Virus record (IMG/VR): IMGVR_UViG_3300020159_001113
Span: 1 to 23,071 of that record
Origin: a virus
DNA length: 23,071 nucleotides
Reading direction: 5' to 3' (one strand)
This document shows positions 3,035 to 22,791 of the stretch, one piece after another. Positions within the stretch are counted from its first letter, which is position 1; each line of letters opens with the position of its first letter. The position numbers were made by a program, and so were the translations under genes. Under the pieces are notes generated by a model, which saw only the letters and a list, made by a program, of their open reading frames with translations, did no database searches and was not told the DNA's origin.

Positions 3035-3787
3035 ATGTTTTTGGTAATAGACGATTTCGAGGGTAAATATGAGTTGCATACGGGAATGTATGACCAAGCA
3101 AAGATATTGGAGTACATCCAAATATACGAGGAACGCTATTTGTTAGAGTTACTTGGTGCTAAATTGTACGACGAATTCATTGATGATTTGGACGTAAACA
3201 ACTATCCTGAGTCGCCTAATTTCCAAGCAATCTTTAATCCATTCCACGAGGATGCGGTTAATCACGGTATTGTTATTTCTCAGGGTATACTTGAAATGCT
3301 CAAAGGCTTTATATACTTCGAGTACATCAAAGATACTGCCAACCAAATGACGATTAACGGACAAGTAATCCCACAGAACGAAAACAGTCTAACGGCAACT
3401 ACTCTGTACAATATGATGTACACGCGTTATTGGGAAGCGTTAAGAACGTATCGCGCAATTCAATGGTATATCTGTATCAACAATGACTTGAAAATTGGAG
3501 AAGTATTAAACTATTCTGTATTGAATTTCGGTAATGGTTACACTGGTTCAAATATAACTGCAACAGTAATTGGTGGTTCGGGAACGGGTTTTTCACTGAA
3601 TTATTTCACCGATATGGGATCAATAATTGACTTAGAAGTTGTTGACACGGGACAGAATTACCAAGCTGGTGATGAAGTTGAAATCCCAGGCGGAACGTTT
3701 AACGCAAAGTTATTAATTGTCAAAGTAAGTAAAGGTGACTTCAAGAAGTGGAACGGTGTACGTAAACAAATGGCTTACTGGTTATGA
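3035..3787 (+). CDS. Putative head-tail connector/adaptor protein with inserted Gly-rich beta unit
   Basis: This 250-aa protein follows the capsid genes where head-tail connectors (HK97 gp6-like) normally lie. Residues 1-150 are mostly helical with many aromatic and acidic residues (YLLELLGAKLYDEFIDDL, MLKGFIYFEYIKDTANQM), typical of adaptor proteins that bind the portal. Residues about 165-235 are quite different: a Gly-rich beta segment with NFGNGYTGSNITATVIGGSG and VVDTGQNYQAGDEVEIPGG. This is the 'G-x-GY ... V.I.GG.GSG' repeat type common in phage tail and surface proteins. The helical character returns at the end (KKWNGVRKQMAYWL), so the beta unit looks like an insertion before the last helix. 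The stop overlaps the next start by 4 bases (ATGA). Confidence 0.65.
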   Translation: MFLVIDDFEGKYELHTGMYDQAKILEYIQIYEERYLLELLGAKLYDEFIDDLDVNNYPESPNFQAIFNPFHEDAVNHGIVISQGILEMLKGFIYFEYIKDTANQMTINGQVIPQNENSLTATTLYNMMYTRYWEALRTYRAIQWYICINNDLKIGEVLNYSVLNFGNGYTGSNITATVIGGSGTGFSLNYFTDMGSIIDLEVVDTGQNYQAGDEVEIPGGTFNAKLLIVKVSKGDFKKWNGVRKQMAYWL

Positions 3788-18860: not shown

Positions 18861-19026
18861 ACTATTTCTAAAAAATATTTTCAATTATTTTTCTCAATGT
18901 TTACGCGGGTTTCAGCGATATTTGCAAAAGTTCTTACCTTTTTTTTCACATAAATAGTTGTTATATTAAAATAAATTTCTAATTTCACAATGTCAATGAG
19001 ACACAAAACAAGAAAAACAAGAACAG
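18861..19026 (+). promoter_or_regulatory. AT-rich intergenic leader of the early small-gene operon
   Basis: This stretch has no convincing gene. It is very A+T-rich, with T-runs at 18890s and 18939-18948. A weak promoter candidate is TTG at 18958-18960, 19 bases before TAATTTCA (18980-18987), two mismatches from the consensus. Next is an A-rich leader (CAAGAAAAACAAGAACAG) before ATG 19027. Confidence 0.35.
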
Positions 19027-20211: not shown

Positions 20212-20373
20212 ATGAAACAGAAAAAAGAAAAACAGATTAAGCCAATGATTCCATTGATGAAAATAATGGATTACTGGAAAAAAGGACATACTTGCGAAGG
20301 TGACAAAGGCGGATCGTTCAACCTGAATCTATACTTGGATTATTGCAAAGTAAAGGAGATGAACAATGCCTAA
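20212..20373 (+). CDS. 53-aa basic protein upstream of the DnaA-like gene, unknown function
   Basis: The product begins MKQKKEKQIKPMIPLMKIMD and ends YCKVKEMNNA. It contains a conserved-looking middle (DYWKKGHTCEGDKGGSFNLN) with two Cys. The 6-base gap to the preceding gene and the 8-base overlap with the following start suggest coupling. No family is recognised. Confidence 0.55.
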   Translation: MKQKKEKQIKPMIPLMKIMDYWKKGHTCEGDKGGSFNLNLYLDYCKVKEMNNA

Positions 20374-20782
20374 AAAATTAGAAAGAACACGCGGTGAATT
20401 GATTAAAGTAATTAACGTACACCATTTTGAAATGTCCGACTTTTGGAGCGTTTGTCCATACACATTTGAAGGCGTTGAAAAGCGCACACGTAAACGCGAG
20501 ATAGTACACTGGCGGAACGTTGGAATGTTGTGGGCGTTTATGTCGGGAATGAGCCTACAAAAAGCCGGTGAAATATTCGACCGTGACCACGCAACAGTAA
20601 TTCACGGAATAGAAAACATCCTAACGGCTTACGAGGGTTACGGACACGTTGAATTGGTTGACATCATAAACACGATTAACGACAATCGACTAACGACAAT
20701 ATTTAAGTCCGACGATTCAAACATCAACTACGCAATTAGTCAAGTAATTTTAGACTCGCGATACAGTGAATTGAATTTTTAG
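20366..20782 (+). CDS. Orphan DnaA domain IV-like DNA-binding protein
   Basis: This 138-aa protein contains the C-terminal DNA-binding domain of DnaA without the ATPase part. Residues 42-85 read RKREIVHWRNVGMLWAFMSG, then MSLQKAGEIFDRDHATVIHG, then IENI. They follow the DnaA domain IV order: basic loop (RKREIV), helix, 'LSL..IG..F' turn, and the signature DHATVIHGIENI (74-85) that resembles RDHTTVIHACRKI. In DnaA this part recognises DnaA boxes. Here it may recruit the host replication machinery, compete with host DnaA or regulate the adjacent replication genes. The remaining residues 86-138 are helical and unrelated. The stop is at the edge of the promoter-like box for the RNA element. Confidence 0.8.
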   Translation: MPKKLERTRGELIKVINVHHFEMSDFWSVCPYTFEGVEKRTRKREIVHWRNVGMLWAFMSGMSLQKAGEIFDRDHATVIHGIENILTAYEGYGHVELVDIINTINDNRLTTIFKSDDSNINYAISQVILDSRYSELNF

Positions 20783-20790
20783 TATATTTG
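20783..20790 (+). promoter_or_regulatory. Bacteroidetes -7 box (TATATTTG) driving the structured RNA element
   Basis: TATATTTG matches TAnnTTTG and lies immediately after the stop of the DnaA-like gene. No good -33 TTG is visible at 17-23 bases; the nearest TTG (20771-20773) is only 9 bases away. Initiation about 5 bases after the box would place the 5' end near G20796, the first base of the first RNA hairpin. Confidence 0.55.
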
Positions 20791-20794
20791 TAAA

Positions 20795-20886
20795 CGGTCT
20801 CCTTCGACATTATAAGACCATAGGAATTATTTACCCTTGTTTTGGATGTAGAGGTCGAAGGCTACTGAAGAAGCGAGGGTTTTTTT
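20795..20886 (+). ncRNA. Candidate structured RNA (~90 nt) with loop-loop pseudoknot and terminator; attenuator or small RNA
   Basis: Three helices can be read directly. P1 is GGTCT (20796-20800) with AGACC (20815-20819), enclosing a 14-base loop that contains CCTTCGAC (20801-20808). P2 is GTAG (20848-20851) with CTAC (20862-20865), enclosing the loop AGGTCGAAGG. P3 is ACCCTTG (20833-20839) with CGAGGGT (20874-20880), one G-T pair, and it encloses P2. CCTTCGAC in loop 1 is the exact reverse complement of GTCGAAGG (20854-20861) in loop 2, giving an 8-bp pseudoknot. P3 is followed by a seven-T run (20880-20886) ending at the ATG of the next gene. With the promoter-like box in front, the unit looks like a complete small transcript or an attenuator for the replication genes. 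I recognise no known RNA family. Confidence 0.6.
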
Positions 20887-21102
20887 ATGCCTAATTTTTA
20901 CAATATGGATTATGTTAATTTAAAATGTAAGTCAAAAGAAAATGATCAGATGTTCGTTGCGATTGGACAATATGTTTCGTTTGAAGTAATTGAAAATAAT
21001 TATTCGTCTCAAATTCTAATTGATCGAAACGACTTGGAAAAGTTATTGCCTTTATTGATCAAGTATTATTACAAACTGCACGAATATGATTGGATGGATT
21101 AA
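20887..21102 (+). CDS. 71-aa protein downstream of the RNA element, unknown function
   Basis: The product begins MPNFYNMDYVNLKCKSKEND and ends YKLHEYDWMD. The first ATG (20887) abuts the terminator T-run of the RNA element; the in-frame ATG at 20905, with an A-rich context, is an alternative that would give MDYVNLKCK. The protein has a beta-rich first half (FVAIGQYVSFEVIENN) and a helical end (DRNDLEKLLPLLIKYYYKLH). It overlaps the initiator gene by 17 bases. No family is recognised. Its expression would depend on readthrough past the RNA element. Confidence 0.6.
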   Translation: MPNFYNMDYVNLKCKSKENDQMFVAIGQYVSFEVIENNYSSQILIDRNDLEKLLPLLIKYYYKLHEYDWMD

Positions 21103-21781
21103 ATTGCACAGACAGTTTTTAAACTGGGAATGGTTCAATAAAAGCGAAGCGGTTCATTTGTTTATGTATCTATTGCTTAAAGCAAATCACAAAGATGGAA
21201 CGTGGCAAGGTATAGACATAAAAAAAGGTCAGTTTATAACATCCTATGGTAAAATTTCAAGTGATACTGGCATTAGTTTACAGACGATTAGAACGCTTTT
21301 AAAAAAGTTGGAAAACACTAACGAAATTAACACGCAAACAACAAACAAATATACTGTGATAACTATCTGTAAATATGCAGATTACCAATCAGAAGAAAGT
21401 GAAACTAACACACAACTAACAAACAATCAACAAACAACTAACAATCAACTAACAACAAACAATAATAATAAGAATAATAAAGAAGATATTATAGACTTTG
21501 AATCGTTGCTTCAATATGTAAATAATGCTTTTGACAGAAAATTTAAAGTAGTAAACAAAGAGGTAAAAGCAAAGTACAAAACATTATTGAAAAGTGGTTA
21601 CGAAAAATCGGATATATTCAAAGCAATAAATAACTGTAAAAAAGATAAATGGCATAAAGAAAATAATTACCAATATTGCACACCTGAATATTTTAGTCGA
21701 TCAACCACTATTGATAAATTTTCAGATACTACCGAAAACCATACTAAAGGAATAATGTCACACCCTACAATAATTGACTGA
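21086..21781 (+). CDS. DnaD-like phage replication initiator / replisome organiser
   Basis: This 231-aa protein has the two-domain layout of phage replisome organisers. Residues 1-95 begin MIGWIKLHRQFLNWEWFNKS and continue with a winged-helix DNA-binding domain containing ISSDTGISLQTIRTLLKKLE (57-76). Residues 101-133 are a Thr/Asn/Gln linker. Residues 137-207 form the phage C-terminal domain (FESLLQYVNNAFDRKFKVVN, YKTLLKSGYEKSDIFKAINN, DKWHKENNYQYCTPEYFSRS), matching the TIGR02220-type pattern '..GY...DI..AI.....W.......Y.TPE.....'. Such proteins bind the origin and load the helicase. The linker DNA carries tandem 11-bp repeats. The last base is shared with the next ATG. Confidence 0.85.
   Translation: MIGWIKLHRQFLNWEWFNKSEAVHLFMYLLLKANHKDGTWQGIDIKKGQFITSYGKISSDTGISLQTIRTLLKKLENTNEINTQTTNKYTVITICKYADYQSEESETNTQLTNNQQTTNNQLTTNNNNKNNKEDIIDFESLLQYVNNAFDRKFKVVNKEVKAKYKTLLKSGYEKSDIFKAINNCKKDKWHKENNYQYCTPEYFSRSTTIDKFSDTTENHTKGIMSHPTIID
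21403..21457 (+). repeat. Five tandem 11-bp repeats (iteron-like, candidate replication origin)
   Basis: Consensus AACTAACAAAC. Copies start at 21403 (AACTAACACAC), 21414 (AACTAACAAAC), 21425 (AATCAACAAAC), 21436 (AACTAACAATC) and 21447 (AACTAACAACA). The period is exactly 11 bases, about one helical turn and not a multiple of three, so it is not explained by a repeated peptide. An A+T-rich tract (21458-21500) follows directly. The repeats lie inside the initiator gene, as origins do in lambda-like phages. Confidence 0.6.
21458..21500. other. A+T-rich tract next to the 11-bp repeats (possible DNA unwinding element)
   Basis: The tract contains repeated AATAATAATAAGAATAATAA followed by AGAAGATATTATAGA. 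It is almost free of G and C and lies immediately 3' of the repeat array. It encodes part of the initiator's Asn/Lys linker. An unwinding role is inferred from its position only. Confidence 0.4.
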
Positions 21782-22791
21782 TGTACAAAAGACTTTCAGA
21801 GGTTAATAGCCAAATGCACGACATCCGACACGTAAAGAATGTTAAAGGTAAATCTATTGGTTGGGATTGGGATTTACTGCCATACACAATTAAAGAAGGT
21901 TGCACGACGTATATAGGTGCTGCTCCAGCATCGGGTAAAACAGAACTTTGGTTTGAATTTTTAATCAATCTTTCGTGTTTACACGGTTGGAATCACGTAG
22001 TATTTTCACCTGAAACGGGTAATTCAGCCGAGATATATGCAGAGTTATGCTACAAATACATAGGCAAACCATATACAATTGGTGATAATTCAATGACTCA
22101 GGGCGAACAGATTCGAGCAGAGATGTTTATAGACAAGCATTTCATTGTAATTGATCCGATTGACGAGGATTTAACGCTTCCGATGTATTACAAATTGGTT
22201 GATGAAATCGAACGAAAACACAATATAAAAATTCACACAACAACAATTGATCCTTGGAACGAATTAACAGAAGAGTATATTCAAAGTGATTTAGGACGTG
22301 AGGATAAATACTTATCGCGAATACTTGGAATGGCACGAAAGAACGCACGAAAAACGGGACGACACAATTGCATAATAAACCACGTCAGAGATCAAACACC
22401 AGTAACGCGTGAATTGTTTTCAGGTGAAACGATTACTTATTTCCCTCCGCCAAGTGCGCGAGATTTTGCTGGTGGTCAAGTTTGGTTTAGAAAAGGATTA
22501 TCTGTATTGATACCTTGGCGACCGCCTACCGGATTAAAGAATAGCGACAATACTATTTGTATGGAAAATGAAGTACATTTGAAAGTTGCCAAAAGCAAAC
22601 CTAAAGGAGTAAGTAAAAACGGAACGTACAAAATGTATTTAGATGTCGAACGATATCAATACTATATGATTGATTGGAAAGGCAACCGAGTATATGCCAA
22701 CAGAAACGCGGAACCGCCAAAACAAACAACACTAAACATAGAATCAAGCAACAGTTTAAACTACATTAAGCCGGACGATTGTCCATTTTAA
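21781..22791 (+). CDS. RecA-fold ATPase / DnaB-like replicative helicase domain, no primase domain
   Basis: This 336-aa protein has a Walker A motif GAAPASGKTE (46-55), a following strand with VVFSPETGNSAEIYAELC (73-90; Glu78 at the place of the catalytic base), a Walker B region TTTIDPWNEL (153-162), IINHVRD (198-204) and GGQVWFRKGLSVLIPWRPP (231-249). 'IDPWN' and 'H.RD...A.GGQ.W.RK...V' are typical of the helicase half of phage primase-helicases and related RecA-type ATPases. No zinc finger or TOPRIM primase domain is present, so a separate primase or host primase would be needed. It follows the initiator gene with a one-base overlap, as expected for initiator-helicase pairs. Residues 250-336 are a lower-complexity tail. 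Confidence 0.8.
   Translation: MYKRLSEVNSQMHDIRHVKNVKGKSIGWDWDLLPYTIKEGCTTYIGAAPASGKTELWFEFLINLSCLHGWNHVVFSPETGNSAEIYAELCYKYIGKPYTIGDNSMTQGEQIRAEMFIDKHFIVIDPIDEDLTLPMYYKLVDEIERKHNIKIHTTTIDPWNELTEEYIQSDLGREDKYLSRILGMARKNARKTGRHNCIINHVRDQTPVTRELFSGETITYFPPPSARDFAGGQVWFRKGLSVLIPWRPPTGLKNSDNTICMENEVHLKVAKSKPKGVSKNGTYKMYLDVERYQYYMIDWKGNRVYANRNAEPPKQTTLNIESSNSLNYIKPDDCPF

Follow-up and report, generated by a model that had tools for sequence, protein, structure and literature searches.

The window analysed here, that is, the whole stretch of DNA constituting one virus record of 23,071 bases from IMG/VR, carries portal and capsid genes and, at its right end, a set of replication genes; among the latter, a short intergenic RNA element comes after an ORF that encodes a DnaA C-terminal domain (DnaA_C) and ends at the promoter box of the element, and before a small ORF followed by the genes of a DnaD-like loader and of a probable ATPase (Table 1). 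The small ORF is without Pfam match and finds only a weak PHROG of unknown function. An earlier note, made from the letters of this DNA, had placed its start at the ATG at 20887, touching the T-run; this ATG is probably not the true start and the one at 20905 is likelier, since the homologous gene in a related locus (L026) lacks an ATG at the T-run and begins at the ATG matching 20905, a position which also fits the 18-nt spacing typical of the RNA family.

Table 1. Features of the RNA element and of the neighbouring genes in the window
Feature	Position	Strand	Remarks
Upstream ORF	20366..20782	+	DnaA C-terminal DNA-binding domain, PF08299, E 6.4e-10, above curated cut-off
TATATTTG, Bacteroidota-type -7 promoter box	20783..20790	+	Matches TAnnTTTG
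Spacer with presumed transcription start	20791..20795	+	Start placed by the Bacteroidota box-to-start distance
P1 hairpin, 14-nt loop	20796..20819	+	Stem GGTCT 20796-20800 / AGACC 20815-20819
Kissing strand 1, CCTTCGAC	20801..20808	+	Pairs with 20854-20861
Loop tail ATTATA (family AYUAUA), conserved unpaired	20809..20814	+	ATTATA/ACTATA in 54/64 parsed RNAs
Linker J, 13 nt, A-rich then TTATT(T)	20820..20832	+	12-14 nt in 52/64 parsed RNAs
Terminator rod with 10-nt tip loop	20833..20880	+	P3, 4x4 internal loop, P4
P3 stem	20833-20843/20870-20880	+	11 bp, some G-U; register set by homologs
4x4 internal loop	GGAU 20844-20847 / UGAA 20866-20869	+	Divides P3 from P4
P4 inner stem	GTAG 20848-20851 / CTAC 20862-20865	+	
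Kissing strand 2, GTCGAAGG, at rod tip	20854..20861	+	
T-run (T7) of terminator-like 3' end	20880..20886	+	4-9 T in 78/78 RNAs counted
First ORF after the RNA	20905..21102	+	65 aa from likely start 20905
DnaD-like helicase loader	21086..21781	+	phrog_2514, E 4.7e-32
Probable replicative helicase-type ATPase	21781..22791	+	phrog_5482 (unknown function) and phrog_239 DNA primase/helicase, E 9.9e-10

The TAnnTTTG box, P1, the complementarity of the two loops, the GTAG/CTAC and ACCCTTG/CGAGGGT stems and the T7 run all lie in the window where the earlier note had read them, and its description of a self-contained structured RNA with a promoter box and a terminator-like 3' end, ahead of the DnaD-like/ATPase operon, holds; the ACCCTTG/CGAGGGT stem is present but its actual extent, as judged from homologs, is longer (P3 in Table 1). 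CCTTCGAC, in the loop of P1, is the exact reverse complement of GTCGAAGG, and the 8-bp helix that they form has, taken as a free duplex, an energy of about -11.6 kcal/mol (family median -11.7). This loop-loop helix is a kissing contact of the 5' hairpin with the tip of the terminator rod, and both helices can coexist; of the two possibilities previously offered, a compact pseudoknot or a competition between helices, the compact kissing fold is favoured and the competition is not, because tip-to-tip kissing leaves the terminator hairpin intact. The folding energy in the window is by itself weak (z -1.36, 19 of 200 shuffles being equally good), and it is conservation, not folding energy, that decides that the element is beyond chance.

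A search with the DnaD-like protein yielded 59 viral loci, in which the stretches upstream of the gene show the same element in other letters, and a protein-independent DNA pattern derived from the conserved unpaired letters retrieved 88 IMG/VR stretches, many of them true members; a first count gave 82 distinct RNAs with the element, IMG/VR viral contigs supplying nearly all of them. A covariance model (R1), built on 42 seed sequences, gave 93 matches in 99 sources and scores the window copy at 91 bits (E 5e-16), the window being one of the 42 seed rows, which match by construction; box, P1, kissing helix, linker, rod with internal loop and T-run are all present in the window, which places it in the new family. 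The covariance model was used in place of a home-made structure search, which returned many A+T-rich false positives beneath its best-scoring matches; a pattern scan of genome contigs gave, among the matches listed, apparent chance matches. In whole-record searches, copies were found in 38 of 40 records, mostly one or two per phage contig.

Among cultured phages, where copies were located by protein-guided fetches together with the covariance model (the nearest blastn matches to the RNA being spurious), Cellulophaga phi18:3 has two copies on opposite strands, at 3075-3183 and, as a weak match, at 23584-23687, both of which keep the loop complementarity; Flavobacterium FL-1 has one at 18920-19026, and FCV-1 and morran9-1 carry divergent, related forms. 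Two annotated hypothetical proteins, gp058 of phi18:3 (NC_021794.1 23539-23640) and gp42 of morran9-1 (NC_048836.1 14157-14300), coincide in part with the leader RNA and are probably spurious gene calls. In phi46:3, phi13:2 and phi19:3 (L322-L324), relatives of phi18:3, the leader in the same gap has diverged further: it shows CTCTCAC/GTGAGAG, its P1 is ill defined, and it may represent a fourth class. One of 397 genomes of the Flavobacterium family carries the RNA, beside a replication-type gene, and this copy is probably a prophage. The RNA is not bound to the DnaD-like family, since Riemerella phage PT03, whose DnaD-like protein has a related C-terminus, gives no RNA match, and the element was not seen directly upstream of the gene in five further DnaD relatives (L028-L032).

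All four predicted helices (P1, P3, P4 and the kissing helix) covary, and P1, P3 and the loop-loop helix abound in the compensatory changes that the earlier note had named as a test. Over 36 distinct fixed-register rows, 99.6% of cells pair and 23 of 26 pairs change on both sides, with a covariation score of 0.812 against 0.237 for shuffled rows and 0.07-0.15 for slid partners; since these rows were assembled from helix segments and admitted only with 7 or more of the 8 kissing pairs, the percentages lean towards structure. With the same proviso, P1 is 99.4% paired, all five of its pairs showing both-side changes in the family, double changes affect 9 of 10 counted pairs in P3 and 3 of 3 in P4, and the kissing helix is 100% paired in the 36 class I rows, with double changes in six of its eight pairs, both-side changes in 96 cells where shuffling predicts 38, and a covariation score of 0.813 against 0.288. 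A selection-free control gives the same picture: a fully complementary 8-mer is found in the 5' and 3' parts of 66 of the 82 distinct RNAs, as compared with 56 of 1,859 combinations (3%) of 5' and 3' parts taken from RNAs with different kissing sequences. About 28 different sequences occur in the 8-bp loop-loop helix; in class I, strand 1 has only U or C at its three middle positions (A or G in strand 2), the outermost pair is invariably G-C or C-G, and A-U and C-G make up the last two pairs almost without exception. To judge from these letters, the class I kissing helix is constrained beyond simple pairing.

The plan of class I, as parsed in 64 RNAs, comprises TATATTTG, about 5 nt, the 5-bp P1 with a loop made of the 8 kissing bases and AYUAUA, P1', a linker mostly of 12-14 nt with TTATT near its end, P3 of 10-13 bp, the internal loop, P4 of 4-5 bp, and a tip loop in which A and one further base of any kind precede the 8 complementary bases, the T-run closing the RNA. 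The internal loop is a 4x4 UGAA/GGAU in most members; in the window and in phi18:3, a rotation through 180 degrees puts GGAU on the 5' side and UGAA on the 3' side and yields the same facing bases, namely U-U and then G-A type mismatches, and the latter suggest tandem sheared pairs. In class II (e.g. L050-L052, L296-L316), the loops are 7 nt long and completely paired (GUUGCAG/CUGCAAC), and GAGUA stands opposite GAAA, an arrangement which we take to resemble the bulged-G (loop E) motif. Class III (L330, L332-L336, FCV-1 and morran9-1) has the kissing strands exchanged between the hairpins, so that AA-GUGAGACG lies in P1 and CGUCUCAC, with AACA or AAUACU after it, at the rod tip; its loops are parts of the class I loops swapped from one hairpin to the other. 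Rearrangements of this kind say that the loops and the internal loop would act as three-dimensional parts; indeed, modules kept though their position shifts, as in the rotated internal loop and the swapped strands, are what a specific three-dimensional object would lead one to expect.

At many class II loci (L050-L052, L296-L316), GTTGCAG, a third copy of the P1 loop sequence, follows the T-run directly before the ATG; by pairing with the rod tip it might prevent translation, or it may be a coincidence. Translational control by this route was set aside, being limited to a subgroup, and a similar TTGCAG-ATG accompanies a class I RNA with another loop sequence (L049).

Each base of the TATATTTG box is 96-100% conserved in 78 upstream regions, among which no conserved -33 element was found; a sigma-70 and terminator pattern scan gave nothing useful, its loop limit of 8 missing the hairpin and Bacteroidota promoters lying outside its coverage. 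Over 81 RNAs, the median distance from the T-run to the first start codon is 18 nt, and a single one of them has another TAnnTTTG box within that interval; no second promoter fits, and the downstream operon thus depends on transcription through the terminator-like stem, which may come from the RNA's own promoter or from further upstream. Some members have poor T-runs (T4; TTTACG in L078; CTTAAC in FCV-1), given which termination may be weak or not the main role; structure is more strongly conserved than termination strength.

The RNA nearly always precedes a co-oriented ORF, although co-orientation is partly expected from the long co-directional operons of phages. Among the 45 RNAs that the DNA pattern retrieved on its own, DnaD-like genes lie downstream of 28 and the ATPase family likewise of 28, and the DnaA_C family is near only 10; other RNAs precede ParB/methyltransferase, primase-like, HNH, SPFH or MazG-like genes, all these names resting on the reading of sequences and being only partly library-tested. 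In four loci (L112, L115, L118, L140), a ParB/methyltransferase-type pair and the DnaD-type operon each have an RNA at their head, and the two copies can carry different loops (L112). Second, diverged copies stand ahead of HNH-endonuclease-like genes at L286 2463-2570 and L021 6752-6847, as if mobile genes brought or needed their own leader; that second copies head HNH and other units speaks against a role as replication primer.

The analysis shows the structure and conservation of the RNA, its promoter box, its terminator-like 3' end and its position, whereas termination, regulated readthrough and the identity of any partner are inferred. The interpretation that we prefer, with a probability of about 0.5, is that of a cis-acting, promoter-proximal leader which sets readthrough and yields a short stable RNA on termination. 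Transcription would start at the TATATTTG promoter and produce a phage leader RNA of about 85-90 nt, in which P1 would fold first and the terminator rod next, the tips then kissing through 8 bp; the compact RNA would end at the T-run, and the operon would be expressed only on readthrough by the polymerase, given that only about 18 nt lie between the T-run and the first start codon. The kissing complex and the conserved unpaired bases would set the ratio of termination to readthrough in cis, the latter bases suggesting a bound protein or polymerase; the partner, probably bound, would be a phage or host protein or RNA polymerase itself. A more specific version, in which these RNAs would form a widespread class of Bacteroidota-phage leaders and the kissing complex itself would be recognised by RNA polymerase or a phage factor and would license transcription of replication and other operons, as an RNA-based timing switch with interchangeable tertiary modules, is put forward tentatively, the odds being rather against it.

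As the leader accompanies transcription units of unrelated content, control of transcription itself is indicated, not the sensing of a product of one pathway. A gene-specific ligand sensor for the DnaD-like/helicase operon, as previously suggested, is unlikely because the first gene differs widely between phages; leader riboswitches and attenuators likewise combine a conserved structured leader with a terminator-like hairpin before the start codon, but here the downstream genes share no pathway, the first genes being unrelated, and no conserved antiterminator fold or alternative pairing was seen in the family. For the same reason, and because kissing and terminator are compatible, the competition-based switch of the earlier note is not supported.

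The closest parallel to the proposed cis-acting leader is lambda pR'-tR', in which a promoter and a short terminated RNA (lambda 6S RNA) are likewise followed by an operon needing readthrough, a likeness that holds here at the sequence level, and in which a gene for a DNA-binding domain ends at the promoter (Q in lambda, a DnaA_C-like one here, in some phages). However, lambda 6S RNA is about 194 nt long and without kissing structure, Q acts through DNA, and no antiterminator is known for the present family, no dedicated antiterminator gene having been identified. The likeness to IsrK of a Salmonella prophage, described as a small RNA with two isoforms from one region (PMC4825925), is less close.

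The first rival, doubtful but deserving attention, is a stand-alone small RNA, also entertained by the earlier note: the terminated 90-nt product would itself be active in trans, its target being either a protein of host or phage, such as RNA polymerase, a nuclease or a defence protein, or else host RNAs, and readthrough would merely feed the operon. The unit is indeed self-contained, both ends being closed by structure, with a strongly conserved promoter box, conserved unpaired AYUAUA and UGAA/GGAU and a kissing structure kept even where the T-run is weak; against trans action stands its placement right before an operon without second promoter. Moreover, loop targets in phage DNA are not enriched, the kissing 8-mer having 2 further copies against 3.4 expected (66 loci, partial genomes), which disfavours an antisense target inside the phage.

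An RNA antiterminator like put of phage HK022, a structured leader located immediately behind an early promoter and affecting termination in cis, would modify RNA polymerase so that the enzyme passes the terminator of the leader and later ones; the position directly downstream of the promoter, the conservation of structure and not of sequence, and the operons of unrelated genes are all in accord with it. Put, however, consists of two hairpins without loop-loop pairing and does not itself end in a terminator, whereas almost every member of the present family has the terminator-like stem built into its fold, and we regard this explanation as unlikely.

Slightly less credit is due to cross-regulation between phages, in which kissing in trans between leaders of phages with the same loop sequence would halt transcription of the replication operon and so confer a loop-specific immunity, in the manner of P4 CI or P1/P7 c4, phage leader RNAs which, by complementarity, prevent an early operon from being transcribed or expressed. 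The roughly 28 loop specificities, and the two copies of one phage that may differ in loop, would suit such a scheme; but those RNAs pair in antisense with separate target stretches, whereas here every RNA contains the partner strand and has its own loops already satisfied, carriage by a single one of the 397 host-family genomes argues against immunity, and the carriers FL-1 and FCV-1 are cultured phages that we presume to be virulent. Pairing between molecules is the least probable explanation: rings or dimers would resemble the packaging RNA of phi29, whose loops are likewise complementary, and covariation is blind to whether a contact lies within one molecule or between identical ones, but linker J has the near-constant length that a contact within the molecule would need, and the RNA precedes replication and other operons, not packaging genes. 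ColE1 RNA I/RNA II and HIV-1 DIS share with class II the fully paired hairpin loops (6-8 nt; 7 nt in class II), and DIS shares with class I the purines 5' of the paired loop, but their contacts are between molecules.

In line with the earlier note, which knew of no described family with this layout, Rfam release 15 (including 6S-Flavo RF01685, c4 RF01695 and Flavo-1 RF01705) gives no match to the window at the gathering threshold, and 14 related loci searched to E 5 gave none at the RNA, with chance matches elsewhere. The one above-threshold match of that search, to the DUF805b RNA (RF02914, 52 bits), lies elsewhere in morran9-1 (L326 1057-1091, NC_048836.1), shortly before a ParB-like gene and in the same phage as a class III leader. 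No description was found in the literature searched, which covered few of the subscription journals. The RNA family is new; its general kind, the structured leader of a phage operon, is already known.

A covarying RNA family absent from Rfam 15 thus occurs in Flavobacterium and Cellulophaga phages and in many metagenomic viromes, phages in which little is known of gene control. In the swapped loops and the rotated internal loop, nature itself offers evidence for the evolution of a kissing complex as a rigid module, and the cultured carriers phi18:3, FL-1, FCV-1 and morran9-1 make its function directly testable; the family would supply a regulatory logic, and parts for synthetic biology, to a phylum with few RNA tools.
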